Assembly: GCA_025934895.1 (NCBI GenBank)
Contig: JAICWH010000031.1
Span: 1 to 32,697 of the forward strand
Direction of reading: 5' to 3'
Source of the DNA: Nocardioidaceae bacterium
GTDB lineage: Bacteria > Actinomycetota > Actinomycetes > Propionibacteriales > Nocardioidaceae
Length of the DNA: 32,697 nucleotides
The notes below the pieces were generated by a model, which made no database searches, was not told the origin of the DNA, and worked only from the letters and a program-made list of their open reading frames with translations. Below, in pieces: positions 6,118 to 24,979 of the stretch. The translations under genes and the position numbers were made by a program. Numbering within the stretch: the stretch's first letter is position 1; every line of letters starts with the position of its first letter.

Positions 6118-6121
6118 TCCG

Positions 6122-7135: not shown

Positions 7136-7177
7136 CAGACCCTCCAGCAGACACACAGACAAGGGAAGACAAGCGAC

Positions 7178-8641
7178 ATGACCGTTCTGGATTCACTGCA
7201 ACCCCGTGAGGTGCTCAGCTTCTTCGAGACCCTGTCCGACATCCCTCGCGGGTCGGGCAACGAGAAGGAGGTGGCCGACTGGGTCGTCGACTTCGCTCGG
7301 AAGCGCGGTCTGGAGGCGACGCAGGACGACCTCCACTGCGTGCTCGTCAAGAAGCCCGGCCAGCACGGCCTCGAAGGCGCCCCTCCTCTGGTCCTCCATG
7401 GTCATCTCGACATGGTCTGTGAGAAGGAGGAAGGGGTGACGCACGACTTCGACTCGGAGCCCATCCGGCTCGTGGTGGACGGTGAGTACATCACCGCCGA
7501 CGGCACCTCGTTGGGAGCCGACAACGGAATCGGCGTCTCCTACATCCTCGCGCTCCTGGACTCCCAGGACATCGCGCACCCGCCGCTCGAGGCGGTGCTC
7601 ACGGCGATGGAGGAGAAGGGCAAGGTCGGGGCCGGCCAGTTCGACACCTCGAAGCTGTCCGGCCGACGGATGATCGACTTCAACTGGATCACCGACAAGG
7701 AGATCCTCGCCGGGTGCAGTGGTGACGTGACCTTCACCGTCGACATCCCCGCGGAGTGGGAGCCGGCCCCCAGCACGCATGACGAGACCCGGTTGCTGAA
7801 GGTCCGTGGCCTCGTCGGCGGGCACTGCGAGTTCGACATCCACCTCGAGCGCGCGAACGCCGTACTCGTGCTGGCGCGCGTCCTGAACGCACTGCTCGGG
7901 CAGTACGACGTGCGCATCAGTGATCCGCACGGCGGAGCCCAGAACAACGCGATACCAGCAGATGCGCAGGTCGTGCTCGCCCTCCGCCATCAGGATCTGG
8001 CGGGCGTCGAGGAGGTCGTCGGCCAGGTCGACCAGGCCCTTCGCGACGAGTATCGCAAGGCCGACCCGGGGATCAGGCTCGAGCTCGAGTCGACCGACGC
8101 GCCCGAGAGGGTGTTCTCTGCCGAGGCCACCGCCCGCTTCGCGCGGCTGACCTCGCTGGTCCCCAACGGTGTCCTCAGCTGGAGCCTCGTCGTCCCCGGC
8201 ATCGTGGAGAGCTCGAACAACCTCGGGACCGTCCGCACCACCGACGACGGTGCCCGGCTGATGTCGACCATCACTGCCGCGGTGACCTCGCGCAAGCACG
8301 AGATACTCGACCGGGTGCGCGCTCTGGCAGAGCTTGCAGGGGGAGGTGTCGCCGTCGAGCAGTACGGCCTCGACGCTCCCGAGTTCCCGTACCAGCCCGA
8401 CTCCCAGCTCCTCAAGATCGCTGCGCAGACGTACCGCGACGTCATCGGCGACGAGCCCGAGGTGCACGTCTCCCAGTGCAGCCTGGAGCTCGGGATGTTC
8501 AGTCAGCGGGTTCCCGGGATGGACACGATCTCCATCGGGACCGAACTGCACGACCTGCACTCCCCGAAGGAGTCGGTCAACCACTCCTCGGTGGCCAAGG
8601 TGTGGCCGCTGGTCCGCGAGCTGGTGAGCCGACTCGGCTAG
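7178..8641 (+). CDS. pepD: aminoacyl-histidine dipeptidase-like M20 metallopeptidase (PepD family)
   Basis: A 487-residue cytosolic di-zinc dipeptidase of the M20 family, PepD (beta-Ala-His dipeptidase) branch. Metal-site motifs are HGHLDMV (His76, Asp78), LGADNGIG (bridging Asp115) and AMEEKGKVGA (Glu145/Glu146). The middle part is the dimerisation lid, and GTELHDLHSPKESV near the C-terminus carries the last metal ligand His. Length is normal for the family. A purine-rich AAGGGAAGA precedes the ATG. It sits in the same orientation within the sugar operon, which is odd for a peptidase. It may release an amino-acid-linked substrate or product, or its relation to the pathway may be incidental. 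Which dipeptide or amide it cuts cannot be told. Confidence 0.88.
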   Translation: MTVLDSLQPREVLSFFETLSDIPRGSGNEKEVADWVVDFARKRGLEATQDDLHCVLVKKPGQHGLEGAPPLVLHGHLDMVCEKEEGVTHDFDSEPIRLVVDGEYITADGTSLGADNGIGVSYILALLDSQDIAHPPLEAVLTAMEEKGKVGAGQFDTSKLSGRRMIDFNWITDKEILAGCSGDVTFTVDIPAEWEPAPSTHDETRLLKVRGLVGGHCEFDIHLERANAVLVLARVLNALLGQYDVRISDPHGGAQNNAIPADAQVVLALRHQDLAGVEEVVGQVDQALRDEYRKADPGIRLELESTDAPERVFSAEATARFARLTSLVPNGVLSWSLVVPGIVESSNNLGTVRTTDDGARLMSTITAAVTSRKHEILDRVRALAELAGGGVAVEQYGLDAPEFPYQPDSQLLKIAAQTYRDVIGDEPEVHVSQCSLELGMFSQRVPGMDTISIGTELHDLHSPKESVNHSSVAKVWPLVRELVSRLG

Positions 8642-8724
8642 CCCGCCCCCTGCGCGACCACCACAAGCGTGATCACTGGCGGCAGTGTCCACGCTCTACG
8701 AATCCTGCTCTACAAGGGAGTCCC

Positions 8725-10203
8725 ATGTCCGTGCACACCTATGCCCTCGAACCGGTCGACGACCTGCTGAGATCCGTTGACCCGGACCTACAGCTCGCTC
8801 CGTGTGGTCTTCGCCGGCTGGTGCTGGGCAGTGGCGCGATCACGGCCGTGGGCGACACCGTTCTCGACCTGCTCGGACAGGAACGCGGTGTCCAAGCCGG
8901 AACCGATCGCCCGCGCGTGACCCTGCTGATGGACGCGACCCGCATCCTCCGGGCCGGCTCCGACCTCAAGGAGCTGGTCGAGCAGCAGCTGGGCGAGCGG
9001 TTCGCCGTGCAGCGGACCGTCCTCGACGACGGCCAGCCTGAGCTGCACGTGGTCGACGAGGTCCTCGACGCAGCTGCGGAAGCGGCCTGCGACGCCGATG
9101 CGATCGTCGCCGTGGGTGGAGGCACCATCAGTGACATCGCCAAGGTCGCGGCCCAGCGCGCACGCAGCCACGGTCGACGGCCGGTGCTTGTCTCGGTCCA
9201 GACCGCCGCATCCGTGGACGGCTACACCGACCACGTGTCGGTGGTGCTTCGCGACGGAGTCAAGAGGACCGTGCCCTCGTGCTGGCCGGACGGAGTGGTC
9301 TCCGACGCCGAGACGATCGCCGGCGCACCGGCCGAGATGAACCGTGCCGGCTTCGGTGAGATGACATCCATGCTGGTGGCACCCGCCGACTGGCGGCTGG
9401 CGTCTCTGGTCGGCACCGACGAGGGGTTCCATCCCGGTCCGATCCGCCTCCTCACGATGGTGGGGGAGGACCTGGACACGTGGAGCCGGGGCGTCAAGGT
9501 CGGCGACCCGGAAGCCGTCGCGGCGCTGACCCGCGCCCTGGCCCTGCGCGGGATCGCGACCGGGGTCGCGGACACGACAGCGGTGCTGTCCGGCATGGAG
9601 CACCTGGTCAGTCACATGCTCGACCTGTACCACACCGAGCACCACCTGCCGATGGGCCTGCACGGGGCCCAGGTGGGCGTCGCATCGGTGGTTGCGGCGG
9701 CTGCCTGGGAGATGCTGTTCGAGCGGATGGCCGCCCACGTGGGACCCCTTCGTCTCGACGGCGCCGCCCTCGACCCGGCACGAGCACGGGCGGGCGTCGA
9801 CGACGCCTTCGGCTTCGTCGACCCGACGGGTCGCATCGCCCAGGAGTGCTGGCGGGACTACTCCGCGAAGCTGTCCACGGTCTCCCGGCTGCGGCCCCGT
9901 CTGGAGCACCTCCTGTCGAGCTGGCCCGCCCACGAGCCGGAGCTGCGAACCCTGGTGCGTCCCAGCCTCGACATTGCCGCCGGGCTGCGTGCTGCCGGGT
10001 CCGCCGCGAGCTTCGCCGAGCTGGAGCCGCGCGTGGAGACCGACCTCGCCCGTTGGGCGGTCCGGCACTGCGCGCTGATGCGCAACCGGCTCACCGTCGT
10101 CGATCTCTTGACGTTCCTGGGCTGGTGGACCTCGACCGACGCCGACGAGGTCCTCGACCGGGCCCGCACCGCCGTGTCCCTGTCTGAGCAAGGAGTGAGC
10201 TGA
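8725..10203 (+). CDS. sn-glycerol-1-phosphate dehydrogenase-like protein (AraM/EgsA family)
   Basis: A 492-residue NAD(P)-dependent dehydrogenase of the iron/zinc alcohol dehydrogenase superfamily, AraM/EgsA branch, which interconverts polyol phosphates and ketose phosphates. The nucleotide-binding loop is VGGGTISD (around 131-137). VQTAASVDGYTDHVS is the typical substrate-side motif. The metal-binding set looks like Glu212 (GFGEM, where relatives usually have Asp), His293 or His297 (EHLVSH) and His313 (GLHGAQ). It is about 100 residues longer than usual; the excess is mainly C-terminal. ATG 8725 follows AAGGGAG, and the longer in-frame start at 8476 lies inside pepD. A FGGY kinase gene starts two bases later, so the kinase product is a likely substrate. 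Confidence 0.85.
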   Translation: MSVHTYALEPVDDLLRSVDPDLQLAPCGLRRLVLGSGAITAVGDTVLDLLGQERGVQAGTDRPRVTLLMDATRILRAGSDLKELVEQQLGERFAVQRTVLDDGQPELHVVDEVLDAAAEAACDADAIVAVGGGTISDIAKVAAQRARSHGRRPVLVSVQTAASVDGYTDHVSVVLRDGVKRTVPSCWPDGVVSDAETIAGAPAEMNRAGFGEMTSMLVAPADWRLASLVGTDEGFHPGPIRLLTMVGEDLDTWSRGVKVGDPEAVAALTRALALRGIATGVADTTAVLSGMEHLVSHMLDLYHTEHHLPMGLHGAQVGVASVVAAAAWEMLFERMAAHVGPLRLDGAALDPARARAGVDDAFGFVDPTGRIAQECWRDYSAKLSTVSRLRPRLEHLLSSWPAHEPELRTLVRPSLDIAAGLRAAGSAASFAELEPRVETDLARWAVRHCALMRNRLTVVDLLTFLGWWTSTDADEVLDRARTAVSLSEQGVS

Positions 10204-10205
10204 CG

Positions 10206-11717
10206 ATGCCCAACGACTATGTGATCGGGGTCGACTGCTCGACGACCGCGTCGAAGTCGGTGGTCTGGAACGCGCGAGGGGAGGCGCTCTCGGCGGACCG
10301 CCGCACCTTCGAGCTGAGCCAGCCACGACCCGGTTGGGGCGAGCAGAACGCCGAGGACTGGTGGACGGCCACAGCCGCCTCGGTGCGGCGGGCTGTCCAG
10401 ACGGTCGACACCTCGCGCATCGGCGCGCTCTGCATCACCCACCAGCGCGAGACCTTCGTCCCACTGGACGAGAGCGGGCATCCGTTCCGGCCCGCCATGC
10501 TCTGGCTGGACACGCGGGCCACGGAGGAGGTCGAGAAGTACGGCACCGATGAGGTGCACCGCATCACCGGGAAGCCGGCGAACCCCACTCCGGCGTGGTA
10601 CAAGCTGCTGTGGCTCGCGGCCCACGAGCCGGACACCATGTCACGCATCGGCCGGGTCGTCGACGTCCACGGGTTCCTGGTCCAGCGGCTGACCGGACAG
10701 TGGGTCACCTCGTGGGCGAGCGCCGATCCGCTCGGGGTCGTGGACATGGCGACCTTCGACTACGACGACGGTCTCCTGAGTGCCGTCGGCCTGGAGCGGG
10801 GCCAGCTGAGCGAGCTGCGCGCCCCGGGCAGCGTGCTCGGTGTGATCCGGGACGAGGTCGCCGCCCAGCTCGGCCTCCCCGCCGGGTTGCCCGTCGTCTC
10901 AGGAGCGGGGGACGGCCAGTGTGCGCAGCTCGGGACCGGCGTCACCAGTCCGGGCCGGGCCTACCTCAACCTCGGCACCGGGATCGTCTCCGGCACCTTC
11001 GACGAGCGGTACTCCTACGGAAGGGAGTACCGCACCCTGTCGGCGGCGGTTCCCGGCGCGTACACGCTGGAGACGTTCATCGGCGGCGGCACCTACAACC
11101 TGAACTGGTTCGTGGAGAAGTTCTCCGGCGTCGACACCCGAGCGCTCGGACTCGACCTCACGCCCGAGCAGGTCCTGGAGACGGCCGCTGCTCGGCTTCC
11201 TCCCGGGGCGGAGGGTCTACTGGCGCTGCCCTACTGGGCGGGTGCCCTGACGCCGTACTGGGACCACAACGCCCGCGGAGTGCTGCTGGGCCTGACCGGC
11301 GTGCACGGCAAGTCCCACGTCTATCGGGCCCTCCTGGAAGGGATCGCCTTCGAGCAGCGACTGCTCACCAACGGGGCCGAGAAGGTGCTGGCCGAGCCGG
11401 TGACCGACCTCGTGGCCCTGGGAGGCGGCTCGCGCAGCCCGGTGTGGTGCCAGATCATCGCCGACGTCATGCAGCGTCGGGTCTCGGTCGTCCGGGAGCC
11501 GGAGAGCACCTGCCTGGGTGCAGGAATGCTGGCCGCTGCGGCTGTCGGGATCCACGAGTCCATCCCGGCTGCCGCCGTCGCGATGAGCGGCGCGTCCGCC
11601 TCGTTCGAGCCCGAGCCGGTGACGGCTGCGGCCTACGACCGGCTGTACGACGTCTACCGGGACATCTACCCGTCGACCCGAGCACTCTTCGCCCGGCTCG
11701 CCGAGGCGACACCGTGA
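10206..11717 (+). CDS. FGGY-family carbohydrate kinase (xylulokinase-like)
   Basis: A 503-residue cytosolic sugar/polyol kinase. The N-terminal FGGY domain begins with the phosphate loop IGVDCSTTASKSVVW and includes ITHQRETFVPLD. The C-terminal domain has SGAGDGQCAQLGTG, where the Asp is the expected catalytic base, and NLGTGIVSG. The LGGGSRSPVWCQIIAD region is typical of xylulokinase relatives. Length is normal. The start lies two bases after the dehydrogenase stop, with AAGGAG upstream, and the stop overlaps the phosphatase start (GTGA), so four enzymes are translationally coupled. Exact substrate is unknown; a pentulose, tetritol or similar polyol is possible. Confidence 0.9.
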   Translation: MPNDYVIGVDCSTTASKSVVWNARGEALSADRRTFELSQPRPGWGEQNAEDWWTATAASVRRAVQTVDTSRIGALCITHQRETFVPLDESGHPFRPAMLWLDTRATEEVEKYGTDEVHRITGKPANPTPAWYKLLWLAAHEPDTMSRIGRVVDVHGFLVQRLTGQWVTSWASADPLGVVDMATFDYDDGLLSAVGLERGQLSELRAPGSVLGVIRDEVAAQLGLPAGLPVVSGAGDGQCAQLGTGVTSPGRAYLNLGTGIVSGTFDERYSYGREYRTLSAAVPGAYTLETFIGGGTYNLNWFVEKFSGVDTRALGLDLTPEQVLETAAARLPPGAEGLLALPYWAGALTPYWDHNARGVLLGLTGVHGKSHVYRALLEGIAFEQRLLTNGAEKVLAEPVTDLVALGGGSRSPVWCQIIADVMQRRVSVVREPESTCLGAGMLAAAAVGIHESIPAAAVAMSGASASFEPEPVTAAAYDRLYDVYRDIYPSTRALFARLAEATP

Positions 11718-12553
11718 CCGCGAGCAGGAGCGGCGCTGTGGCGGTCCCTCCGCCACGGTCGTACGAGGGGTACCTGTTCGACCTCGACGGGACGATCTAC
11801 CTCGGCGACCAGCTGCTTCCGGGCGCCTCCGACCTGGTCACCGCTCTTCGGGAGCGAGGACGCCAGACGCTCTTCCTGTCCAACAACCCCACCCGCGACC
11901 CGCAGATGTACGCCGACAAGCTCGGGCGGCTCGGGCTCCCGACGCCGATCAGCCACATCGTCAACCCGGTGGTGACCATGCCCGCCTGGCTGCTCCGGGA
12001 GGCCGCGGACGCCGCGGTCTTCGTGATCGGCGAGGAGCCGCTGGTCCGAGCCATCGAGGGGGCGGGCATCCGGACGACCACCCGACCCGAGGAGATCGAC
12101 CTCGTCGTCGCCAGCTACGACCGTGGTTTCGACTACCGCAAGCTGCAGATCGCCTTCGACGCCCTGTGGCAGCACCGGCGCGCCCGGTTGGTCGCCACCA
12201 ACCCGGACGCCTACTGCCCGATGCCGGGAGGCAGGGGGGAGCCCGACGCGGCTGCGGTGATCGCCGCGATCGAGGCCTGCACCGGGGTCCGCTGCGAGGT
12301 CAACGTCGGCAAGCCGTCGCCCGTGATGCTGGAGACGGCCCTGGACATCCTGGGCCTCGTCCCGACCGAGTGCCTGATGGTCGGTGACCGGTTGTACACC
12401 GACATCGCGATGGCCGTCGACGCGGGCGTCGACTCGGCACTCGTCCTGACGGGCGAGAGCACCCGAGAGATGGTCGACGCGCTGCCGCCCGATCGACGGC
12501 CGACCCGCGTCCTGCAGCGCATCGACGAGCTGCTGACCCCTGTGCTGACCTGA
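11714..12553 (+). CDS. HAD-superfamily sugar phosphatase, subclass IIA (NagD-like)
   Basis: A 279-residue cytosolic phosphatase. It has all four HAD motifs: FDLDGT (residues 22-27, nucleophile Asp23), FLSNNPT, GKPSPVM with the motif III lysine, and MVGDRLYTDI. The long cap between motifs II and III is the IIA type found in NagD and phosphoglycolate/glycerol-phosphate phosphatases. The GTG start overlaps the kinase stop by four bases. The frame remains open back to 10595, but that stretch only shadows the kinase gene. Having a kinase and a phosphatase in one operon suggests that the phosphatase removes a dead-end or side-product phosphate, or acts later in the route. Confidence 0.9.
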   Translation: MTASRSGAVAVPPPRSYEGYLFDLDGTIYLGDQLLPGASDLVTALRERGRQTLFLSNNPTRDPQMYADKLGRLGLPTPISHIVNPVVTMPAWLLREAADAAVFVIGEEPLVRAIEGAGIRTTTRPEEIDLVVASYDRGFDYRKLQIAFDALWQHRRARLVATNPDAYCPMPGGRGEPDAAAVIAAIEACTGVRCEVNVGKPSPVMLETALDILGLVPTECLMVGDRLYTDIAMAVDAGVDSALVLTGESTREMVDALPPDRRPTRVLQRIDELLTPVLT

Positions 12554-12563
12554 GTGAGGAACC

Positions 12564-13580
12564 ATGAACAGCGAAGCAGTGACCCAGCCCAGCACGGCCC
12601 GGCGGCGGCTCATGGTGGTCGTGGCCCGGTTGTACTACGTGCACGGAGTGCGTCAGCGCGAGATCAGCGAGCGGCTGGGAGTCTCCCAGGCCCGCGTGTC
12701 CCGGGTGCTGCGCCAGGCCGAGGCGGAGGGCGTCGTACGCACCGTCGTCGCGGTGCCCGAGGGGCTCCACCCCGATCTCGAGGACAGCATCGAGCGCAGC
12801 TTCGGGCTCATGGAGGTGCACGTGGTGGAGGTGGCGGCCGGAACGGGCGACGTGGCCGCCTCCCTGGGACGTGCCGCCGCACGCTACTTCGGTGAGGCGA
12901 CGGTCGGCGGGACCGTCGTGGGGTTCACCTCCTGGAGCACCACGCTGCAGGATATGGCGCTCGCCTTCGACGAGCTGCCGCGGACCGGCCCGCGCTACGT
13001 GGTGGAGATGCTCGGCGACCTGGGCTCTCCGGTCCAGCAGCACTCGGCGGCGCGAGCGACGCAGGCGATGGCGACGGCGCTCGGCGCGGAACCGGTGTTC
13101 CTGCGAACTCCCGGAGTCCTCGCCAGCTGGGACCCGACCGTCCCCCGAGACGCCCACGTGCACCGGGCGCTCGGCCTCCTCGACGCGATGGACGTGGCCT
13201 TCCTCGGGGTGGGCCCCGTCGAGACGCACAGCGCGAGCAGACCCGGCGACATCGGCTTCAGCCGCCGACAGCTTGCCCGGGCCCGAGCCATGGGAGCGGT
13301 GGCGCAGCTCAACCAGCGGTTCCTGGACAGTGCAGGCCGCGCCCTGGCAACCCCGTTCGACGACCTGGTGGTCGGGGCCAGCCTGGAGCAGGTCGCGGCC
13401 GCACGCAGACGCGTGGTCATCGCCGGCGGGGCGGACAAGCACGAGTCACTGGCCGCGGTGCTCGCCGGCGGGTGGGTCGACGTCCTCGTCACGGACACGG
13501 AGACGGCCCGGTTCCTGGCTGCGCACGCTCCCGACGCTCCCGAGCTCCGAGCTCTTGCCCCCGTCGGCAACCACGCCTAG
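12564..13580 (+). CDS. SorC-family sugar-binding transcriptional regulator, first copy
   Basis: A 338-residue regulator with an N-terminal helix-turn-helix (RQREISERLGVSQARVSRVL, about 34-53) and a C-terminal sugar-phosphate-binding domain of the DeoR/SorC type (GFTSWSTTL, VVEMLGDLG, PVFLRTPGV, GWVDVLVTDTETA). It closely resembles the product of the minus-strand gene at 18411-19514, including the recognition helix. EryD-type regulators of polyol operons belong to this family. The ATG lies 10 bases after the phosphatase stop, with GAGG upstream. The stop codon TAG overlaps the -10 box of the promoter for the E1 alpha gene, so this gene could influence its own downstream block. Confidence 0.92.
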   Translation: MNSEAVTQPSTARRRLMVVVARLYYVHGVRQREISERLGVSQARVSRVLRQAEAEGVVRTVVAVPEGLHPDLEDSIERSFGLMEVHVVEVAAGTGDVAASLGRAAARYFGEATVGGTVVGFTSWSTTLQDMALAFDELPRTGPRYVVEMLGDLGSPVQQHSAARATQAMATALGAEPVFLRTPGVLASWDPTVPRDAHVHRALGLLDAMDVAFLGVGPVETHSASRPGDIGFSRRQLARARAMGAVAQLNQRFLDSAGRALATPFDDLVVGASLEQVAAARRRVVIAGGADKHESLAAVLAGGWVDVLVTDTETARFLAAHAPDAPELRALAPVGNHA

Positions 13581-13623: not shown

Positions 13624-14610
13624 ATGAACCTATCCCCGCAGACGCAGCTGGAGATGCAGCGACGGATGCTTCGCATCCGGCGCTTCGACGAGCGAGCCTC
13701 GAAGATGGTCAAGCGGGGCCAGATCCCCGGCACCGTGCACACCAGCATCGGACAGGAGGCCCAGGTCGTCGGTGCCTGCATGGCGCTCGGGGAGGGCGAC
13801 TACATGACCGGCAACCACCGCAGCCACGGTCATCCGATCGGCAAGGGCTCGCCGCTCGGCCCGCTGATGGCAGAGCTGGTCGGCAAGGCGACCGGTGTCT
13901 GCGGCGGCAAGGGTGGGTCGCTGCACCTCGCCGACTTCTCGGTGGGCAGCCTCGGCGAGTCGGGCATCGTGGGCTCCTCGATCCCGATCGCCACGGGTGC
14001 TGCGCTGTCCAGCAAGGTACTCGACAACGGGCACGTCTCCCTGGCGTTCTTCGGCGACGGGGCCGCGAACCAGGGGTGCCTCTACGAGGCGATGAACCTC
14101 GCCGGCGTGTGGAAGCTCCCGATCGTCTTCCTCTGTGAGAACAACCAGTACGCACTGTCCACCCCTGCACACACGGTGACCTCCGGTGTCATCGCCGATC
14201 GCGCTGCCGGGTTCGGCATGCCGGGCGTCCGGGTCGAGGACGGCCAGGACGTCCTTGCGGTGTACGACGCTGTGCACACCGCCGTACGGCGCGCCCGCCG
14301 AGGCGAGGGCCCGAGCCTGGTCGAGGTGATCACCTACCGCTACAACGAGCACTCCGAGGGACTCAAGCTCGGCACCGACTACCGCGACCAGGCCGAGCGG
14401 GCCCAGTGGGTCGAGCGGGACCCGATCGTGGTCTTCCGACAGCGGCTGGTCGACGACGGGGTCGCGACCGCGGAGCAGCTCGACGCCCTCGAGGCGGAGG
14501 TGATCGAGGAGGTCGACGAAGCCGTCCAGTTCACAAACGACAGCCCGTTCCCCGACCCCAGTGTCGCCTTCAAGGACCTCTACACCGAGCCGATCGGAGC
14601 ACTCGCGTGA
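13624..14610 (+). CDS. TPP-dependent E1 alpha subunit (pyruvate/acetoin dehydrogenase type)
   Basis: A 328-residue alpha subunit of a two-chain E1 that decarboxylates a 2-oxo acid, or cleaves an alpha-hydroxyketone, on thiamine diphosphate. The TPP motif is clear: FFGDGAANQG (Gly144-Asp145-Gly146) and then ENNQY (Asn173/174). HTSIGQEAQ and GNHRSHGHPI are the usual N-terminal family motifs. Length is close to acetoin dehydrogenase E1 alpha (about 320-330) and shorter than many pyruvate enzymes. ATG 13624 follows ACGAGG. The open frame upstream to 12871 overlaps the regulator gene and is rejected. The stop overlaps the E1 beta start. Acetoin, pyruvate or a related small ketone are the main candidates. 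Confidence 0.93.
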   Translation: MNLSPQTQLEMQRRMLRIRRFDERASKMVKRGQIPGTVHTSIGQEAQVVGACMALGEGDYMTGNHRSHGHPIGKGSPLGPLMAELVGKATGVCGGKGGSLHLADFSVGSLGESGIVGSSIPIATGAALSSKVLDNGHVSLAFFGDGAANQGCLYEAMNLAGVWKLPIVFLCENNQYALSTPAHTVTSGVIADRAAGFGMPGVRVEDGQDVLAVYDAVHTAVRRARRGEGPSLVEVITYRYNEHSEGLKLGTDYRDQAERAQWVERDPIVVFRQRLVDDGVATAEQLDALEAEVIEEVDEAVQFTNDSPFPDPSVAFKDLYTEPIGALA

Positions 14611-15668
14611 CTGTCATGAGCTACCTCGGCGCCATCGGCGCCGCCCAGCGTGAGGCCATGGAGGCCGACCCCAGCGTCGTCATCATCGGCGAGGACGTGG
14701 AGGCCAACGTCTACGGCACCACGGGTGGCGGGAAGTCGCGCTCGGACAAGGGGGACTTCCTCCAGATGTTCGGCAGCAACCGCATCCGGAACACCCCCAT
14801 CTCCGAGGAGGTCATCGTCGGTGCGGCAGCAGGAGCGGCGATGACCGGGCTGCGCCCCATCGTCGACCTGTCGTACTCCAGCTTCCTCTACATGGCCATG
14901 GACCAGTTCGTGAACCAGGTCGCCAAGAACCGCTACATGTTCGGTGGCCAGGCCTCGATGCCGGTGGTGTTCCGCTCGGCGATGTTCTACGGGTTGAACA
15001 CCGGAGCTCACCACTCCGACCGGCCCTACCCGATGTTCATGAACGTTCCCGGCCTCAAGATCGTCGTCCCCGCCACGCCGTACGACGCGAAGGGTCTGCT
15101 CCGAACAGCTGTCGACTCGGACGACCCGGTGCTGACCTTCGAGGCGTGCATCCTGTGGGGCACCAAGGGGGAGGTGCCGGAGGAGGAGTACCGCATCCCG
15201 CTCGGCGAGGCGCGGACCGTGCGTCGAGGCGACGACGCGACGGTGGTGGCCATCTCCAGCGCCGTGCCGGCTGCGATCGCCGCCGCGGAGTCGCTGGCGG
15301 AGGACGGCATCTCGGTGGAGGTGATCGACCCACGCACGCTGGTGCCCTTCGACACCGAGGCGGTCATCCGGTCCGTGCAGCGCACCGGTCGACTGGTGGT
15401 CGCCGACCCGGCGCACCGGACGTGCTCCGCGGCTGCGGAGATCTCGGCGATGGTGGCCGAGGAGGCGTTCGAGTCGCTGCGTGCACCGATCGTCCGCGTC
15501 ACCACGCCCGACACCCAGATCCCCTTCAGCCCGTCGCTCGAGAAGCAGCTCTATCCGAGTGGTCCCAGGATCACCGAAGCCATCCGCCGGGTGATCGGCC
15601 AGCCGACGAGCATGCCGTCGCACGGCGCACGCGACATGGACCAGCTCGCCACCCAGGCCCCGCGCTAG
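14607..15668 (+). CDS. TPP-dependent E1 beta subunit (pyruvate/acetoin dehydrogenase type)
   Basis: A 353-residue beta subunit. N-terminal motifs are GEDVEANVYG and ISEEVIVGAAAGAAMTGLRP. The central part has NTGAHHSDRPYPMFMNVPGL and VPATPYDAKGLL. The C-terminal transketolase domain has EVPEEEYRIPLGEARTVRRG. It would pair with the E1 alpha product as an alpha2-beta2 enzyme. I place the start at GTG 14607, which overlaps the alpha stop as GTGA; ATG 14616 in the same frame is the alternative and loses only three residues. The frame is open upstream to 14406, inside E1 alpha, and that part is not used. Confidence 0.92.
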   Translation: MTVMSYLGAIGAAQREAMEADPSVVIIGEDVEANVYGTTGGGKSRSDKGDFLQMFGSNRIRNTPISEEVIVGAAAGAAMTGLRPIVDLSYSSFLYMAMDQFVNQVAKNRYMFGGQASMPVVFRSAMFYGLNTGAHHSDRPYPMFMNVPGLKIVVPATPYDAKGLLRTAVDSDDPVLTFEACILWGTKGEVPEEEYRIPLGEARTVRRGDDATVVAISSAVPAAIAAAESLAEDGISVEVIDPRTLVPFDTEAVIRSVQRTGRLVVADPAHRTCSAAAEISAMVAEEAFESLRAPIVRVTTPDTQIPFSPSLEKQLYPSGPRITEAIRRVIGQPTSMPSHGARDMDQLATQAPR

Positions 15669-15722: not shown

Positions 15723-15965
15723 ATGGCGAAGATCGAGGTTCTGCTCCCGCAGTGGGGCATGGGCATGAACGAGGGCACGATCACCAGCTGGCTCAAGAGC
15801 GTCGGCGACACGGTGGCCGAGGACGAGTCGCTGGCGGAGGTCGAGGCGGAGAAGGTCGAGGAGACCCTGGAGGCGCCAGCCTCCGGCACCTTGGCCGAGA
15901 TCGTCGTGCCCGAGGGCGAGACGGTGGAGGTCCGGACCGTCGTGGCCTACATCGAGACGACCTGA
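15723..15965 (+). CDS. stand-alone lipoyl (E2-type) carrier domain protein
   Basis: An 80-residue protein that is just one lipoyl/biotinyl-attachment domain. It begins KIEVLLPQWGMGMNEGTITS, typical of E2 N-termini. The lipoylation site is Lys44 in EVEAEKVEE, in place of the common ETDK sequence. There is no linker, no peripheral-subunit-binding domain and no catalytic domain, so it would act as a mobile acyl carrier between E1 and the separate catalytic core encoded at 16857. AAGGAG stands eight bases before the ATG. Glycine-cleavage GcvH is another small lipoyl protein, but it is about 125 residues with a different fold edge; the sequence here is E2-like. Confidence 0.92.
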   Translation: MAKIEVLLPQWGMGMNEGTITSWLKSVGDTVAEDESLAEVEAEKVEETLEAPASGTLAEIVVPEGETVEVRTVVAYIETT

Positions 15966-15999
15966 CCGAGAGAACCGAGCCGAGACGGAGGAGGACGTC

Positions 16000-16857
16000 A
16001 TGGGACAGGTCGACCCGAGCACGGTGGTCGAGCAGGCGGTCGAGGGCGGCTACGCAGTCGGCGCCTTCAACATGCACAACGAGGAGACGACCGAGGCCCT
16101 GGTGCTGGCGGCCGAGCAGGCCCGGGCTCCGGTCTTCCTCCAGGTGGGGCGGGCGATCGTGCCGCACATGGGGTTGCGCAGGGCCTACGAGATGACGCGT
16201 CGGGTCGCCGAGGCGTCGTCGGCTGACTACGTCATCCACCTCGACCACGGTCCGTGGGAGGAGGTGTTCGAGGCGATCCGCCTCGGCTTCACCTCGATCA
16301 TGTACGACGGAGCGCATCTGCCGTTCGAGGAGAACATCCGGACGACCCGCAAGGTGGTCGAGGTCGCGCACGCGTTCGGGATTCCTGTGGAGGCCGAGCT
16401 GGGCAAGATCCCGGACGCCGACGAGCAGGTCGACTGGGCCTCCTACTACACGGACGTTGCGGAGGCGGAGCGCTTCGTCGACGAGACCGGCGTGGACTTC
16501 CTGGCGATCTCGGTGGGCATCGTGCACGGAGTGCCGCTCTCGGACCCGCAGCCACTCGAGATCCAGCGCGTCAAGGAGATCAAGGCGGCGACCGGCATCC
16601 CTCTGGTGCTCCACGGTGCCTCGGGTGTGCCGAGCGACGAGGTGCGAGCGGCCATGGGCGCCGGCGTGCACAAGTTCAACGCGGACACCGATCTGCGCCA
16701 TGCCTTCCGGTCGGGGATCGAGGCGGTCTGGTCTCAGGGGGACCGACAGCTGGAGGAGGCGTTGGCCGAGGGCCGCGAGCGGATGGTCGCCGCGACCGTC
16801 GAGAAGATGGAGCTCTACGGCTGCGCCGGCACGGCCTCGAGTGCGGCGGCGCAGTGA
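16000..16857 (+). CDS. class II (zinc) ketose-bisphosphate aldolase family protein
   Basis: A 285-residue TIM-barrel aldolase of the FbaA/GatY/IolJ family, which cleaves ketose (bis)phosphates to dihydroxyacetone phosphate and an aldehyde. Metal and catalytic residues are in place: HLDHG (catalytic Asp82, zinc ligand His83), Glu133 (VEAELG), His176 (GIVHG) and His205 (LHGASG). The usual YDGS motif reads YDGA (102-105). GGAGGA precedes the ATG. The stop overlaps the start of the E2 core gene (TGATG). The gene lies between the two halves of the split E2, so the aldolase product may feed the E1/E2 complex. Whether it acts on tagatose-, fructose- or another ketose phosphate is unknown. Confidence 0.92.
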   Translation: MGQVDPSTVVEQAVEGGYAVGAFNMHNEETTEALVLAAEQARAPVFLQVGRAIVPHMGLRRAYEMTRRVAEASSADYVIHLDHGPWEEVFEAIRLGFTSIMYDGAHLPFEENIRTTRKVVEVAHAFGIPVEAELGKIPDADEQVDWASYYTDVAEAERFVDETGVDFLAISVGIVHGVPLSDPQPLEIQRVKEIKAATGIPLVLHGASGVPSDEVRAAMGAGVHKFNADTDLRHAFRSGIEAVWSQGDRQLEEALAEGRERMVAATVEKMELYGCAGTASSAAAQ

Positions 16858-17525
16858 TGACGGCGTCCGAGGAGCAGAAGGAAGGCGTCGTCACTCCGCT
16901 CAAGGGCATCCGGCGGACCGCCGCGCGACGCATGGTGACCGCCTGGGAGGCTCCCGTCTTCCACCTCTCCATGGACGTGGACATGTCGACCGCCCTCGGC
17001 GTGAAGGACCGCGTGGCCGGGGCGACGGTGACCGACGCTCTGCTGGCCGCGTGCGCACGGGCCCTGGTGGCGCATCCCGCCCTCAACGCGCACTACCGTG
17101 ACGAGGCCGTGACGACGTTCGACCGGGCGCACGTCGGCATGGCGGTGGCCACTGACGCGGGGCTCGTCGTTCCGGTCATCCACGAGGCCGACCTCCTCGA
17201 CCTGGCGGGGATCGCGCAGGCCCGCCGCGACCTCGCGACGCGTGCTCGTGAGGGCCGGCTGGCGATGGCCGACGTCACGGGCGGCACGTTCACCGTCTCC
17301 AACCTCGGCATGATGGGCATCGACTACTTCGATGCGATCCTCAACGTGCCGCAGGTGGCCATCCTCGCGGTGGGTGCGACCCGGCAGCGGTACGTGTGGA
17401 ACGACGGTGAGCCCGCCTGGCGCCCCCTGGCCGGGCTCACGCTGACGTGCGACCACCGCGCCGTCGACGGCGCCACGGGCTCCCTCTTCCTCGCCGACGT
17501 GCGCCGACAGCTCGAGACCGGCTGA
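16857..17525 (+). CDS. free E2 catalytic core (2-oxo acid dehydrogenase acyltransferase)
   Basis: A 222-residue protein that corresponds to only the catalytic C-terminal domain of a dihydrolipoamide acyltransferase. The start, PLKGIRRTAARRMVTAWEAP, is where the core begins in full-length E2. VTGGTFTVSNLGMMGIDYF is conserved, and the active site is CDHRAVDG (His200, Asp204). It would move the acyl group from the lipoyl arm to CoA and form the cubic or dodecahedral core. No lipoyl domain or E1/E3-binding domain is present. ATG 16857 overlaps the aldolase stop by one base; GTG 16854 is an equally possible start one codon earlier. The frame upstream is a shadow of the aldolase gene. Confidence 0.92.
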   Translation: MTASEEQKEGVVTPLKGIRRTAARRMVTAWEAPVFHLSMDVDMSTALGVKDRVAGATVTDALLAACARALVAHPALNAHYRDEAVTTFDRAHVGMAVATDAGLVVPVIHEADLLDLAGIAQARRDLATRAREGRLAMADVTGGTFTVSNLGMMGIDYFDAILNVPQVAILAVGATRQRYVWNDGEPAWRPLAGLTLTCDHRAVDGATGSLFLADVRRQLETG

Positions 17526-19705: not shown

Positions 19706-21349
19706 ATGGAGGACCTCAGCATTCCCTTCGACCTCGTGGTCGTGGGCGCCGGGATCAACGGGCTGGGCATCGCTCGGGACGCGGCAGCGCGGGGCGTACG
19801 GGTGGCTTTGCTCGAGCAGGACGACATCTGCAGCGGAGTGTCCGCCTGGTCGGGCCGGCTGGTCCACGGAGGCCTTCGCTACCTCGAGCACCGTGACTTC
19901 GCCCTGGTGCGGGAGTCCCTCCGCGAGCGCGAACGGCTGTTCCGCCTGGCCCCGCACCTCGTCAAGCCGCTGCGTCTGCTGATGCCCCTCTACTCGCACA
20001 ACAAGCGACCTGCCTGGATGATCCGGCTGGGCATGGTCGCCTACGACGTCCTGTCCTTCGACAAGCGGACGGGACGACACGAGGTCCTGGACAAGGACGC
20101 AACCCTCCGGCGCTTCCCGGGGATCGCTCAGCGAGGCCTCGCGGGTGCAGTTGTCTTCACCGACGGGCAGGTGGAGTACGCCGAGCGGCTGTGTGTCGAG
20201 GTCGCCGTGGCGGCCGCTGGTGACGGAGCGGTGATCCGCACCAAGGCCCGGGTCGAGGAGCCCATCCTGGAGGACGGGCGCATCGCTGGGGTGCGCTTCC
20301 GCGACACCACGACGGACAGGCTGCACGAGGTCCACGCACCCGTGGTGCTGAACGTCGCGGGACCCTGGATCGACCGGATCTTCCGTTGCGGCGCTCCGCC
20401 CCAGCCCAGGCTCAACGGAGGCACGAAGGGCAGCCACCTCGTGGTCGACCGGTTCCCCGGAGCGCCGAGCGATGTCGTCTACTACGAGTCGAAGACCGAC
20501 GGTCGGCTCGTCCTGGTGATCCCGTGGATGGGCCGCTACCTCATCGGCACCACCGACATCCGGTTCGACGAGGACCCCGGCGAGGCCAGGTGCGACGAGG
20601 ACGAGATGACCTATCTCCTCGATGAGGTCAACCAGCTGATACCCCAGGCCAGGCTCACTCCCGACGACGTCCTGTTCACCTACTCCGGCGTCCGGCCGCT
20701 GCCGTATGCGCCCGACGTCGAGGAGTGGGAGATCCCCCGGAGCCACGTGCTCCACGACCATGCACCCGACCTGCCGGGACTCGTCACCGTCGTGGGGGGC
20801 AAGCTGACGACCTACCGTCAGCTCGCACAGGACGCGGTCGACGACATCCTGAAGCGACTCGGTCGCAAGAAGCTGCGGTCGGTGACCGCAGGCCTGCCAC
20901 TTCCGGGTGCGGTGGGTGACCTCGGCCAAGCCAGGGACTTCCTGGTCCACACGGACATCTCGCCGCGCACCGCCGACCGGCTGGTCGCACTGTACGGCGG
21001 GCGGTCGCTCGACGTGGTGGCGCTGGCCCTTCAGGACCGCGAGCTGCTGACGGTGCTGCACGAGGGCACCGGTGCTCTGGGAGCCGAGCTGGTCTTCGCG
21101 ATCCGCCACGAGTTCGCGAGGACGCTGACCGACGTGCTCGCCCGGCGCATGCTGCTGGCGTTCGAGCCCGACCACGGACTGGAGGTCGCCGAGCGAGCGG
21201 CCGCCCTGCTCGGTGAGAGGCTGGGCTGGGACCAGGACCGGCAGACGGCCGAGGTGGCGGAGTACCGGGACTGGCTGTCCCGCCTCGCTGTCCCCGGTCG
21301 CGCGCGGCAGCCCGCGGTCTCCGACTCGCTGGCGGACGCGTCCCGGTGA
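19706..21349 (+). CDS. glpD: FAD-dependent glycerol-3-phosphate dehydrogenase family protein (GlpD-like)
   Basis: A 547-residue flavoprotein of the GlpD/EryB family, which oxidises glycerol-3-phosphate or a tetritol phosphate at the membrane and passes electrons to quinone. The FAD-binding motif is VVGAGINGLG (Gly14, Gly16, Gly19). RLVHGGLRYLEHRDFALVRE and GGKLTTYRQLAQDAVD are hallmark segments. The C-terminal helical domain is complete. I chose ATG 19706 because GAGAGGG lies eight bases upstream; ATG 19673 in frame falls within the operator-like site. The stop overlaps the kinase start (GTGA). Glycerol-3-phosphate is the default substrate, but the SorC/FGGY/ABC context resembles erythritol-type loci, where EryB is a close relative. 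Confidence 0.9.
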   Translation: MEDLSIPFDLVVVGAGINGLGIARDAAARGVRVALLEQDDICSGVSAWSGRLVHGGLRYLEHRDFALVRESLRERERLFRLAPHLVKPLRLLMPLYSHNKRPAWMIRLGMVAYDVLSFDKRTGRHEVLDKDATLRRFPGIAQRGLAGAVVFTDGQVEYAERLCVEVAVAAAGDGAVIRTKARVEEPILEDGRIAGVRFRDTTTDRLHEVHAPVVLNVAGPWIDRIFRCGAPPQPRLNGGTKGSHLVVDRFPGAPSDVVYYESKTDGRLVLVIPWMGRYLIGTTDIRFDEDPGEARCDEDEMTYLLDEVNQLIPQARLTPDDVLFTYSGVRPLPYAPDVEEWEIPRSHVLHDHAPDLPGLVTVVGGKLTTYRQLAQDAVDDILKRLGRKKLRSVTAGLPLPGAVGDLGQARDFLVHTDISPRTADRLVALYGGRSLDVVALALQDRELLTVLHEGTGALGAELVFAIRHEFARTLTDVLARRMLLAFEPDHGLEVAERAAALLGERLGWDQDRQTAEVAEYRDWLSRLAVPGRARQPAVSDSLADASR

Positions 21350-22836
21350 GCGCGCGATACGTCGTCGCTCTCGACGAGGGCTCGACCAGTGCCCGGGCCG
21401 TCCTGGTCGACCTCGACGGCGAGATCGTCGCGGAGGCCAGGAATCCCGTCGTCCCGCTGTTCCCCCGACCACGGTGGGTCGAGCTCGATCCGATCGCGTT
21501 GTGGGAGGCGCAGCGGCGCAGCCTGGAAGAGGCCATGTCCAAGGTCGGGGCAGTCACCGACGACCTCGCGGCGATCGGCATCACCACCCACCGCGAGACC
21601 TGCCTGGTATGGGATCGCCGGACCGGTGAGCCGGTTCACCCGGCGCTGATGTGGATGTCGAAGCAGACCGACCCCGTCGTGGCCCGATGGCACCTCGACG
21701 GGCTCGACCGCGAGTTCCGGGCGCGCACCGGCCTGTTCAACGACTCCTTCTTCAGTGCCGCCAAGCTGGCGTGGATCATGGAGAACGTGCCCGGCGTGCT
21801 CGAGCGAGCCGAGGCCGGCGAGCTCGCAGCCGGTACCGTGGACACCTGGCTGCTCTGGCAGCTGACCGGTGGTCGCGCACATCTGACCGACCACAGCGAG
21901 GCGTCGCGCACGGCGCTCTTCTCGCTCGAGCGGCTGACCTGGGACGAGGAGCTCTGCAAGGCGTGCGGCGTGCCGCCGCAGATCCTGGCACCGGCGCGGG
22001 CCTCCGACGCCCAGTTCGGTGAGATGCGTCCCGGAGACGTGGGTCTGCCTGGCTCCGCGGCGGTGCCGGTGACCGCGGTGATGGCCGACCAGCAGGCGGG
22101 CATGTTCGGCCAGGCGTGCTTCGAGGAGGGGTCGGCCAAGAACACCTTCGGAACCACCGGGGTCCTCACCGCCAACAGTGGCGAGCGTTCGAAGGTCCTG
22201 CACGGACTGACCGCCAGTGTCGGCTGGACGGTGGCTGGAACGACCGCCTACGAGATCGAGGGAGTGGTGTTCCACGCCGGACAGACACTCCAGTGGATGC
22301 GTGAGCGGCTGGGCGTCCTCGGCCCCGATGCGGACGTCGAGCAGGTTGCGCTGAGCGTTCCGGACACCGGCGGGGTCTATGTCGTGCCCGCGTTCGCCGG
22401 GATGAGCGCGCCGTACTGGGAACGGGACGCACACGCGAGCATCGTCGGTCTCACGCTGGAGTCCGGCGCCGAGCACGTCGTGCGAGCCGGCGTCGAGGCG
22501 ATGGCCTACCAGACCCGCGACAACGTGGAGGTGCTGGTGGCCGGAGGGACACCGGTTCCCGAGCTGAAGGTCGATGGTGGGGCCGCCCGCAGCAACCTGC
22601 TCTGCCAGTTCCAGGCGGACGTGCTGGGTGTCCCTGTGCGTCGCCCGGCCGAGCTGGAGCGGACCGCGCTCGGCGTCGCTCATGTCGCGGGCATGACCGT
22701 CGGGCTGTGGAAGCAGGGCGACCTCAGTGACCGCTGGGTGGTCGACCGGGTCTTCGAGCCGGAGATGCCGGAGGCCCGGCGCGAGGAGCTGTACGCCGGA
22801 TGGCAGCACGCGGTTCGCACCGTGATCGGTCGCTGA
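21346..22836 (+). CDS. glpK: glycerol kinase-like FGGY kinase (GlpK family)
   Basis: A 496-residue kinase that aligns well with glycerol kinase: DEGSTSARAVLVD (phosphate loop), TTHRETCLVWD, GTVDTWLLWQLTGG, MADQQAGMFGQACFEEGSAK with the catalytic Asp, NTFGTTGVL and MAYQTRDNVEVL. In the glycerol-contacting region of E. coli GlpK, where DPYFSG contains Tyr135, this protein has DSFFSA, so Tyr is replaced by Phe. The phosphate loop and the segment after it also differ from standard glycerol kinase. A related polyol is therefore possible as substrate. The GTG start overlaps the glpD stop by four bases. It should supply the phosphorylated polyol for the dehydrogenase. Confidence 0.88.
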   Translation: MSARYVVALDEGSTSARAVLVDLDGEIVAEARNPVVPLFPRPRWVELDPIALWEAQRRSLEEAMSKVGAVTDDLAAIGITTHRETCLVWDRRTGEPVHPALMWMSKQTDPVVARWHLDGLDREFRARTGLFNDSFFSAAKLAWIMENVPGVLERAEAGELAAGTVDTWLLWQLTGGRAHLTDHSEASRTALFSLERLTWDEELCKACGVPPQILAPARASDAQFGEMRPGDVGLPGSAAVPVTAVMADQQAGMFGQACFEEGSAKNTFGTTGVLTANSGERSKVLHGLTASVGWTVAGTTAYEIEGVVFHAGQTLQWMRERLGVLGPDADVEQVALSVPDTGGVYVVPAFAGMSAPYWERDAHASIVGLTLESGAEHVVRAGVEAMAYQTRDNVEVLVAGGTPVPELKVDGGAARSNLLCQFQADVLGVPVRRPAELERTALGVAHVAGMTVGLWKQGDLSDRWVVDRVFEPEMPEARREELYAGWQHAVRTVIGR

Positions 22837-22860: not shown

Positions 22861-23265
22861 GTGATGGCGCCGGCTCCGGAGGGCCGCAGGCTGCTCCGTC
22901 TGGAGGTCCGCAACGCTGCGACGCCGATCGAGAAGAAGCGGGAGTGGATCAGGACCCGGGCGAGGTTGGGGCCGCAGATCGAGAACCTGATCCTGGGGAT
23001 GGGGGAGACCCGCGAGGAGGTCTCCCAGGCGCTGGTCGACCTGCACGTGGCCGGCTGCGAGCTGGTCACCATCACCCAGTGCCTGCGGCCCTCCCTGCGA
23101 CACCATCCGGTCGAGCGGTGGGTCCGGCCGGAGGAGTTCGTCGAGCTCCAGGACGAGGCCACCGAGATCGGCTTCGCCGGCGTGCTGTCCGGGCCACTGG
23201 CGCGCTCGTCGTACCGTGCCGGACGCCTCTACCAGCAGGCGCTTGCCAGCAGGGTCGGCACGTGA
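22861..23265 (+). CDS. LipA-like protein with internal deletion of the radical-SAM core
   Basis: A 134-residue open frame. Residues 4-38 match the N-terminal segment of actinobacterial lipoyl synthase ([19 protein letters not shown]). Residues 42-131 match its C-terminal segment ([50 protein letters not shown]). The roughly 200 residues between, which carry both iron-sulfur cysteine motifs and the SAM-binding part, are absent. The join is near 22972-22983 and is in frame. The serine of RSSY that contacts the auxiliary cluster remains, but there is no cluster to contact. It cannot be a lipoyl synthase. The frame is unbroken, has AAGGGAGG upstream and is coupled (GTGA) to the lipoate ligase gene, so it may be a functional accessory protein. 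A recent deletion product is the alternative. ATG 22864 is another possible start. Confidence 0.85.
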
Positions 23266-24065
23266 CTGCTGCGTTCGGGGCCCACGACGTGGCCGTCGTC
23301 CGGGGCGCACCGCGAACAGCCGACGCAGACGTCGCGCTGGTAGCCGCCAAGCTGGCCGCGCTGAGGGTCGGCGGGCGAGCCGAGCTGAACCTCACCCAGC
23401 CGCTGTCGACCGCGGCGTTCAGCCGTCGGGACTCGCTCCTGCCCGGGTATGCATCCGCCCAAGACGCGGTCCTGGCACGCGGGTTCTCTCCGGTCATCCG
23501 CCCCGTGGGTGGCCACCTCGCCGTCTACGACGCGGGGGCACTGGTGCTGCACCTGTGGGCGCCGCATCCCGAGGCCCGGGTGCAGATCCGCCACCGCTTC
23601 GAGCTGTTCGGCGCCGCGGTGGTGCAGGGCCTTCGACGGCTGGGCGTCGACGCGCGCCTGGGGCCGGTGCCGGGTGAGTACTGCGACGGTGAGTTCAGTG
23701 TCAACGACTCCGGACGCGCCAAGCTGGTGGGCACCGGGCAGCGGATCACCGGCGCCGGCTTCCTGTTCAGCGCCGTGGTGATGGTCCAGGACGCGGGTCC
23801 GGCGCGCGAGGCGCTCACCGCCGCCTACGCGAGCCTGGGGCTGACCTTCGACCCTCGGACCGTCGGATGCGTCGCCGACCGGGTGCCGGGCGTGACGAGT
23901 GAGGAGGTCTGCGAGGAGCTGATTGCAGCACTCGGCGGGGTCGTCCCGCTGATGCCGGCGGCGGGCGAGACGCTGCCGCGACCGACGTACGGCGTCCAGC
24001 CGACATCCCAAGTGAGAAGGAGAAGTGGAACATGGCCACTGGCCTCGACAAGTATGCGGACATGA
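23262..24065 (+). CDS. lipoate-protein ligase A family protein
   Basis: A 267-residue protein of the biotin/lipoate ligase fold that would attach lipoate or octanoate to a lipoyl-domain lysine. [13 protein letters not shown] (residues 80-92) matches the lipoate-binding RxxGGxxVYH loop. [20 protein letters not shown] supplies the conserved lysine (Lys154) of the active site. An N-terminal stretch and a C-terminal part of moderate length complete a typical small LplA. GTG 23262 overlaps the stop of the LipA-like gene; the longer frame upstream only shadows that gene and glpK. The last 34 bases overlap the BKACE gene. The free lipoyl protein at 15723 is the obvious client. LipM-type octanoyltransferase, which uses a cysteine, is less likely. 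Confidence 0.86.
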
Positions 24066-24979
24066 AGCCGAGCTGGGACTACCCGGTCATCATCGAGTCC
24101 CACATCAACGGAGTCCGCTCGAAGGAGATGAACCCCAACACGCCGACGTCGTACGACGAGATCGCCGAGGACGCGATCCGTTGCTGGGAGGCAGGAGCCG
24201 GTGCTATCCACGCGCACAACACGAGCTTCGACCTGATGGGCGAGGATGCCTACGTCGACTACATGCGCACGTGGGAGAAGGTCCTGGAGAAGCACCCGGA
24301 CATCACCTGGTATCCGACCACGTGCAACAACCTTCGGCTCACGGGGGACGAGAACGGCCTCCAGCACGTCCCCTACCTCGTCAAGAACGCGAACGTGCGG
24401 ATCGCCTGTGTCGACACGGGTCTCACGCTGTTCGCGACCCACCAGGACGCGGACGGCTACCTCTCCGGCCCGGAGTTCGGGTTCAACTACGAGCGGGTCG
24501 CCAGCCAGATCAGGATGCTGCGCGAGCACGGCTCGCCGATGGTCTTCGGCATCTACGAGCCCGGGCACCTGCGGCACGCCATGCACTACGTCAACAAGGG
24601 ACTCTCCACTCCAGGCTCGATGTGGGACTTCTACCTCATCGGGGACTACGGCCTCACCGCCATGGAACCCATCGGGACCAACGGCGTGAAGCCGAGCCTC
24701 GAGAGCCTGTACTACTACCTCTGGATGATCGAGGAGGCTCAGGTCACCCATCCCTGGTACATCTCGATCTGGGGACAGGGCGCCCTCGACGACACTGGCA
24801 TCCTGCGCAGGGCGATCGAGCTCGGCGGGCACATCAAGACGGGGTTGGAGCTGTTCTACGACCCGGACCGCAACCCGACCAACCTCGAGCTGCTCCAGCA
24901 GGCGCAGGAGATCGCCCGAGAGGTCGGGCGACCCATCGCGACCCAGGACGAGGCGAGGGCGCTGTACAACATCGCCTGA
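24032..24979 (+). CDS. beta-keto acid cleavage enzyme family protein (BKACE, formerly DUF849)
   Basis: A 315-residue TIM-barrel zinc enzyme. Family members condense a beta-keto acid with acetyl-CoA and split the product to acetoacetate and a new acyl-CoA; Kce of lysine fermentation is the best known. AGAGAIHAHN gives the metal ligands His60 and His62. IIESHINGVRSKEMNP at the N-terminus (with the family's early His) and the C-terminal IKTGLELFYDPDRNPTN are typical. Length is normal (about 275-315). A good ribosome site (AGAAGGAGAAG) lies just before ATG 24032, within the end of the ligase gene. It is the last gene of the glpD operon and could remove a beta-keto acid made in the pathway. The actual acid is unknown. 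Confidence 0.88.
   Translation: MATGLDKYADMKPSWDYPVIIESHINGVRSKEMNPNTPTSYDEIAEDAIRCWEAGAGAIHAHNTSFDLMGEDAYVDYMRTWEKVLEKHPDITWYPTTCNNLRLTGDENGLQHVPYLVKNANVRIACVDTGLTLFATHQDADGYLSGPEFGFNYERVASQIRMLREHGSPMVFGIYEPGHLRHAMHYVNKGLSTPGSMWDFYLIGDYGLTAMEPIGTNGVKPSLESLYYYLWMIEEAQVTHPWYISIWGQGALDDTGILRRAIELGGHIKTGLELFYDPDRNPTNLELLQQAQEIAREVGRPIATQDEARALYNIA

Follow-up and report, generated by a model that had tools for sequence, protein, structure and literature searches.

The stretch of DNA analyzed here (the window) comprises 32,697 nucleotides of contig JAICWH010000031.1 from a Nocardioidaceae bacterium, and it encodes the E2 component of a 2-oxo acid dehydrogenase-type system as two separate proteins, a free lipoyl protein and a free acyltransferase core. 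We consider it probable that the system is a dissociated one that works in sugar or polyol breakdown, with E1, a free E2 trimer, and a shared E3 all served by a lipoyl carrier that diffuses among them. 2-Oxo acid dehydrogenases are usually held to form complexes because a lipoyl arm anchored on the E2 core allows intermediates to be channeled. Here, the tether and the docking domain have been lost, and with them probably the cage of E2 cores, yet the system has been kept and appears to have moved between phyla, and its natural fused and unfused relatives make the importance of tethering for catalysis testable. The cluster also marks an uncharacterized sugar or polyol pathway with its own lipoylation genes.

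The E2 is encoded by two intact genes separated by an aldolase gene

The five genes of the system follow one another on the forward strand:

13624..14610, + strand: E1 alpha (E1α), a thiamine-diphosphate enzyme of 328 residues (Pfam E1_dh, 2.5e-80)
14616..15668 (alternative start 14607), + strand: E1 beta (E1β), 350 residues (Pfam Transket_pyr, 1.8e-32; Transketolase_C, 1.3e-34)
15723..15965, + strand: free lipoyl carrier protein, 80 residues, with Lys44 (Pfam Biotin_lipoyl, 3.3e-20)
16000..16857, + strand: class II DHAP-type aldolase, 285 residues, complete (Pfam F_bP_aldolase, 5.8e-84 over residues 8-277)
16857..17525, + strand: free E2 acyltransferase core, 222 residues, with CDHRAVDG (Pfam 2-oxoacid_dh, 2.2e-65)

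The first-pass annotation had described an E2 split into a lipoyl protein and a core, with the aldolase gene between them and both E1 genes directly upstream, and the coordinates and the Pfam and NCBIfam matches, the Pfam ones far stronger than expected by chance, bear this out, including the TGATG overlap shared by the aldolase stop and the core start. All five reading frames are intact, and E1α contains the thiamine-diphosphate motif GDG...NN. The lipoyl protein and the core each consist of a single domain, Biotin_lipoyl and 2-oxoacid_dh, respectively. As the annotation had also stated, the binding domain and linkers are missing: a Pfam profile search of the five cluster proteins gave no E3-binding domain, while three such domains occur in the genome, all on contigs other than that of the cluster, and no linker between the lipoyl protein and the core is encoded in the five-gene stretch. 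It was likewise correct that no E3 gene is found in the window; a dihydrolipoyl dehydrogenase is encoded on contig C203 of the same genome (TIGR01350, 462 bits, above the cut-off). Since the host keeps conventional E2s elsewhere (several full-length lipoyl E2s) as well as a KGD-like protein, the split is a property of the cluster and not of the organism.

The free core lacks the hydrophobic C-terminal knob

The AlphaFold model of the E2 core, computed as a monomer, has a mean pLDDT of 88.8 and superimposes on the pig PDC E2 core (Z score 28.3; 1.5 Å for 193 residues). All of the aligned cores share the catalytic DHR and DG residues, and by sequence and model the window core is predicted to have the CAT fold with the catalytic His and Asp. 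Besides a lipoyl domain and a binding domain, it lacks a C-terminal knob, an absence that the first-pass annotation had overlooked. In the alignment with the human E2 chain of 647 residues, the core stops opposite residue 642 and is thus five residues short at its end. To place this among other E2s, 121 E2-core open frames (duplicates included) were sorted by the presence of a lipoyl domain in the same frame, which gave 102 fused cores. A pattern search for the PxxMLx-type ending, the hydrophobic end that docks E2 trimers to one another, found it in 80 of the 102 fused cores versus 1 of 16 unfused ones. We take this one core to be L115, which lies outside the clade of the window core; it was called split by a simple BLAST rule, has a normal knob, and was not counted as split. 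The knob-and-socket contact between trimers, and its loss in actinobacterial E2s, has been described for the OdhA/AceF system (PMC10415282). Because the knob is missing, we infer that the free E2 core would be a small soluble trimer.

The split arrangement is conserved in related and distant genomes

Four further genomes of the family have their genes in the order E1α-E1β-lipoyl-aldolase-core, with core identities of 71-76%; in one of the four the locus lies on a contig of 4.44 Mb. Had close relatives carried a fused E2 here, this would have spoken against the split, but none was found; the relatives carry the split too. Free E2 cores of this clade were found at 13 loci (12 in the core tree described below plus L149) in Actinomycetota and Alphaproteobacteria. 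Varied versions occur in Geodermatophilus (L063), a Micrococcales MAG (L064), another family of the class (L149), and Nonomuraea (L096), and the alphaproteobacterial versions are in a Rhodobacterales MAG (L065), Palleronia (L066), and on a Shinella plasmid (L060). The gene order proposed for actinobacteria is thus present there, and the split is not confined to them.

E1 genes are in view at 12 of the 13 loci, and in all 12 the gene directly after E1β encodes a free lipoyl protein. The interval between lipoyl and core genes at these loci contains the aldolase alone (six loci), GlpD and the aldolase (three), GlpD, GlpK, and the aldolase (two), or nothing (Nonomuraea); the loci with GlpD or GlpD plus GlpK are L060, L063, L065, L066, and L149. 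At 11 of these loci the aldolase gene immediately precedes the core gene, and the two often overlap by 4 bases; the predicted co-translation of aldolase and core is conserved. At the Nonomuraea locus no aldolase gene was found within about 10 kb, and on an Arthrobacter plasmid the E3 gene lpdA, and not an aldolase gene, lies directly before the free core gene. These gene-order counts indicate that the carrier goes with E1 and the aldolase usually with the core, and that the split arrangement does not depend on the aldolase.

One might suspect that misassembly, decay, or insertion of the aldolase gene had disrupted an originally fused E2, as the genome is in 247 contigs and the neighboring lipA is a remnant. 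Given five intact frames and the recurrence of the arrangement in four related genomes, in other families, and in other phyla, we regard the chance of such an artefact as negligible. Assembly error in particular was rejected, because the same split is present at conserved loci in relatives and across phyla.

In a search based on E1, E1α above 75% identity was present in 4 of 395 genomes of the class, that of the window included, so the system is sparse. There was no such cluster in the surroundings of a Rhodococcus match (H4), and a search of viral contigs with the aldolase gave no match. Two copies of the split system are plasmid-borne (Shinella and Arthrobacter), and these copies, together with the spread over two phyla, point to horizontal transfer.

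The free cores of the clade probably derive from one split

A tree was built from 118 cores. In it, the split cores of this group, 12 in number, formed a single clade (SH-aLRT 99), with fused E2s from uncultured Actinomycetota as its sister group (support 93). A single supported clade next to fused E2s, along with two plasmid copies, suggests that one split event, followed by horizontal spread, probably gave rise to the free cores of this clade. Three unfused cores outside the clade (L052, L061, and L150) look like separate split events; the tree was a quick one with long branches, and these three are not firmly placed in it. At L052 (positions 5847-12100) the order is lipoyl-E1α-E1β-aldehyde dehydrogenase-E2 core-HpcH aldolase-lipA, accompanied by CoA-transferase and ABC transporter genes. 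L061, on plasmid p2 of Gemmobacter fulvus, has adjoining separate genes for E1α, E1β, lipoyl protein, and E2 core, with GMC oxidoreductase and ABC transporter genes as neighbors.

The lipoyl carrier is accompanied by lipoylation genes

Lys44 is invariant across 17 aligned free-standing lipoyl proteins and is predicted to be lipoylated. The protein scored 20.4 bits with GCV_H (PF01597), below the cut-off of 22.2, and far more strongly with Biotin_lipoyl; its best NCBIfam match, far below cut-off, was the acetoin dehydrogenase E2 model. Lipoylation genes, which the first-pass annotation had also overlooked, are linked to the cluster downstream:

22864..23265, + strand: lipA (lipoyl synthase) remnant, with in-frame loss of about residues 42-218 and with them the radical-SAM cysteines
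23289..24065, + strand: LipL-like octanoyl/lipoyl transferase (Pfam LplA-B_cat, 8e-9), with a motif beginning EYCDG

The LipL-like protein matched NCBIfam NF053589 (8.6e-8, below the cut-off) and the structures PDB 2p0l (1.4e-4) and 2p5i (2.4e-3). Its motif EYC.G...GR.K..G..QR recurs in relatives, which are present in clusters L042, L063, L064, L096, and L149. In the lipA remnant, the reading frame runs from about 41 N-terminal residues straight into the C-terminal 90. The lost region is intact in the lipA gene of L039, located after glpK, and the gap is either a real deletion or a collapse in the draft assembly. Other clusters with a lipA gene are those of Shinella, Agrobacterium, and L052. 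Elsewhere in the host genome there are further genes of the LipB/LplA and LipA types; the best matches of the two types are neighbors on contig C76 and are candidates for the housekeeping enzymes, which makes the LipL-like gene of the window an additional one. Dedicated lipoylation has precedents: a ligase of its own serves the free carrier LbpA (PMC6067878), and an acetoin dehydrogenase cluster of Pelobacter carbinolicus includes its own lipoate genes, acoS and lipB (PMC3543383).

Neighboring genes point to sugar or polyol breakdown, and E1 has an altered active-site loop

The genes on both sides of the system resemble those of sugar and polyol metabolism in their profile matches:

8725..10203, + strand: Fe-ADH_2/glycerol-1-phosphate dehydrogenase-like protein, which accompanies the system in most relatives
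10206..11717, + strand: FGGY kinase (XylB-like)
11738..12553, + strand: HAD-IIA phosphatase
12564..13580, + strand: SorC-type sugar-binding transcription regulator (Pfam Sugar-bind, 5.3e-38)
19706..21349, + strand: GlpD-type FAD dehydrogenase
21346..22836, + strand: GlpK-type FGGY kinase

This set of neighbors (ABC sugar transporters, FGGY kinases, a HAD phosphatase, Fe-ADH, GlpD, GlpK, the aldolase, and SorC regulators) points to a cluster that would break down a sugar or polyol by phosphorylation and then cleavage to DHAP plus an aldehyde. Two further window genes recur near the system, one for a beta-keto acid cleavage enzyme (24032-24979; 81-89% identity in relatives) and one for an epoxide hydrolase (EHN; 802-2043).

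The E1α proteins of the split group have GNHRSHGHPI and an EHSEG loop; the corresponding sequences in fused relatives, L067 for example, are STHRAHGH and GHxxxDP. Because the active-site loop is altered, the substrate of the split-group E1α probably differs from that of the fused relatives, and the loop argues against plain pyruvate. One possibility, to which we give somewhat less than even weight and which is compatible with a diffusing carrier, is that E1 cleaves an acyloin or oxidizes an aldehyde instead of decarboxylating a 2-oxo acid. The loss of the GHxxxDP pattern is in keeping with this, as are the acetoin dehydrogenase model at the top of the lipoyl protein's NCBIfam matches, the aldehydes that aldol cleavage would probably yield, the lack of an obvious 2-oxo acid producer in the cluster, and the known acetoin dehydrogenase cluster with dedicated lipoate genes (PMC3543383). 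On the other side, both E1α and E1β matched pyruvate dehydrogenase models best, below the cut-offs, and the substrate cannot be read from the sequence.

Some relatives combine E1 and the free lipoyl protein with other partners

In Sphingobium RAC03 (L153) and Croceicoccus marinus (L154), E1α and E1β are followed by a free lipoyl gene (50-56% identity) with no E2 core gene beside it, in operons that also hold SDR, cupin, and M24 peptidase genes. The same Sphingobium plasmid also encodes an E2 of full-length size, which sits with its own E1 genes roughly 30 kb away from the E1 and lipoyl genes. The lipoyl gene of Agrobacterium pAt15955 (L155) and Rhizobium RCAM05350 (L156) follows the E1 gene or genes and is itself followed by an α/β hydrolase gene rather than an E2 core gene; the Agrobacterium E1αβ is fused, with lipA nearby, and epoxide hydrolase and FGGY kinase genes are near the Rhizobium locus. 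The 52-kb plasmid of Rubrobacter indicoceani (L152 and L175) encodes E1α, E1β, the lipoyl protein, GlpD, GlpK, the aldolase, Fe-ADH, an FGGY kinase, BKACE, and an aquaporin, and no E2 core was detectable on it. Loci L046 and L055 have a class II aldolase and an FGGY (GlpK-like) kinase with a fused E1αβ and a full-length E2, and L055 additionally encodes a RuBisCO-like protein and triosephosphate isomerase.

We tentatively entertain the broader idea, without favoring it, that a horizontally spread sugar or polyol pathway uses a modular E1-carrier unit with its own lipoylation enzymes and interchangeable acyl acceptors, perhaps with an acyloin or aldehyde as the E1 substrate. In this view the acceptor would be the CAT-fold core in the window; its position is taken by the α/β hydrolase gene in Agrobacterium, and in Sphingobium and Rubrobacter the lipoyl gene has no neighboring acyltransferase gene.

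A diffusing carrier is the probable explanation of the split E2

In the mechanism we propose, E1 (α2β2) would act on a carbonyl intermediate and reductively acylate the 80-residue carrier on the lipoyl group of its Lys44. The carrier would then diffuse to the free E2 core, presumably a trimer, where the acyl group would pass to CoA, and the dihydrolipoyl carrier would be reoxidized by the shared dihydrolipoyl dehydrogenase of the cell. Carrier diffusion, the trimeric state, the acyl-CoA product, and the use of a shared E3 are the inferred parts of this scheme. What favors a diffusing carrier is that the split is kept, with a free lipoyl gene after E1β in all 12 loci with E1, that the catalytic DHR/DG residues and the lipoyl Lys are invariant, and that an E3 gene is present in the genome itself. 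The use of lipoyl groups in trans also has a precedent, since OdhA needs AceF (PMC10415282). Against it are the absence of an E3 gene from most copies of the cluster and the conserved adjacency and overlap of aldolase and core genes in most loci, which could mean physical contact. Because the Rubrobacter plasmid has E1, the lipoyl protein, and most of the pathway genes and no E2 core, the carrier may also work without the core.

The first-pass annotation had left the choice between a diffusing acyl carrier and an aldolase that bridges the parts. Diffusion fits best, and bridging is not supported as a rule: an obligatory role of the aldolase is unlikely in view of the Nonomuraea split, which lacks it, and the variable GlpD and GlpK inserts. 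A stable noncovalent complex, in which the aldolase (or E1) serves as a scaffold and channels its product to E1, would nonetheless be in keeping with the position of the aldolase gene directly before the core gene. We judge it unlikely: the Pfam model accounts for the only domain of the aldolase, the neighbor of the core gene in Arthrobacter is lpdA and not the aldolase gene, and no aldolase gene is near the lipoyl-core pair of Nonomuraea. It is similarly improbable that the core is acylated from the lipoyl domains of the full-length E2s of the host, with the free lipoyl protein serving E1 in a reaction whose final acceptor is not CoA. The OdhA precedent, the several lipoyl E2s of the host, and the lipoyl genes next to E1 without a core in Rubrobacter, Sphingobium, Croceicoccus, and Agrobacterium are consistent with such a division. 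The occurrence of core and lipoyl protein together in 12 loci of two phyla argues the other way, and a core that is transferred from host to host would be best served by a carrier that comes with it.

Comparison with known lipoyl-dependent systems

We found no description of the split E2, the gene combination, or the pathway in the open-access literature, so an account elsewhere is possible; an E1-lipoyl-E2 system without a covalent tether, a docking domain, and probably a core cage is probably a new variation on a known system. It shares with the canonical PDH, ODH, BCKDH, and acetoin dehydrogenase complexes the E1α and E1β subunits, the lipoyl Lys, a CAT-fold core with DHRxxDG, and an E3 in the genome, but differs from them in that lipoyl protein and core are separate and the peripheral subunit-binding domain, the linkers, and the C-terminal knob for a 24- or 60-mer are lacking. 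The actinobacterial OdhA/KGD proteins with AceF likewise have a core without its own lipoyl domain, and actinobacterial E2s are reduced to trimers (PMC10415282, PMC7568260). However, the OdhA core forms one protein with E1 and depends on lipoyl domains that are tethered within AceF, whereas E1α, E1β, and the E2 core are separate genes here, and AceF loses its trimer contacts by a three-residue insertion, the split core presumably by a shortened end. GcvH of glycine cleavage and LbpA of sHdr sulfur oxidation are free lipoyl carriers too, the latter also with linked lipoylation genes (PMC6067878), while the window protein is an E2-type lipoyl domain and its partner a CAT-fold acyltransferase core. 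The acetoin dehydrogenase cluster of P. carbinolicus is similar as a catabolic E1/E2 cluster with its own lipoate synthesis genes (PMC3543383); the neighbors of the window system are instead sugar and polyol kinases, the aldolase, GlpD/GlpK, and ABC transporters. The aldolase itself resembles class II ketose-bisphosphate aldolases in its full domain (TIGR00167, 226 bits versus a cut-off of 215.6) and its metal-site and DHAP-site motifs (HLDHG, VHG, HGASG, and NADTD), with PDB 8q57 and 8q58 as the nearest solved structures by sequence, and is unlike them in that its gene lies inside an E1-lipoyl-E2 operon.
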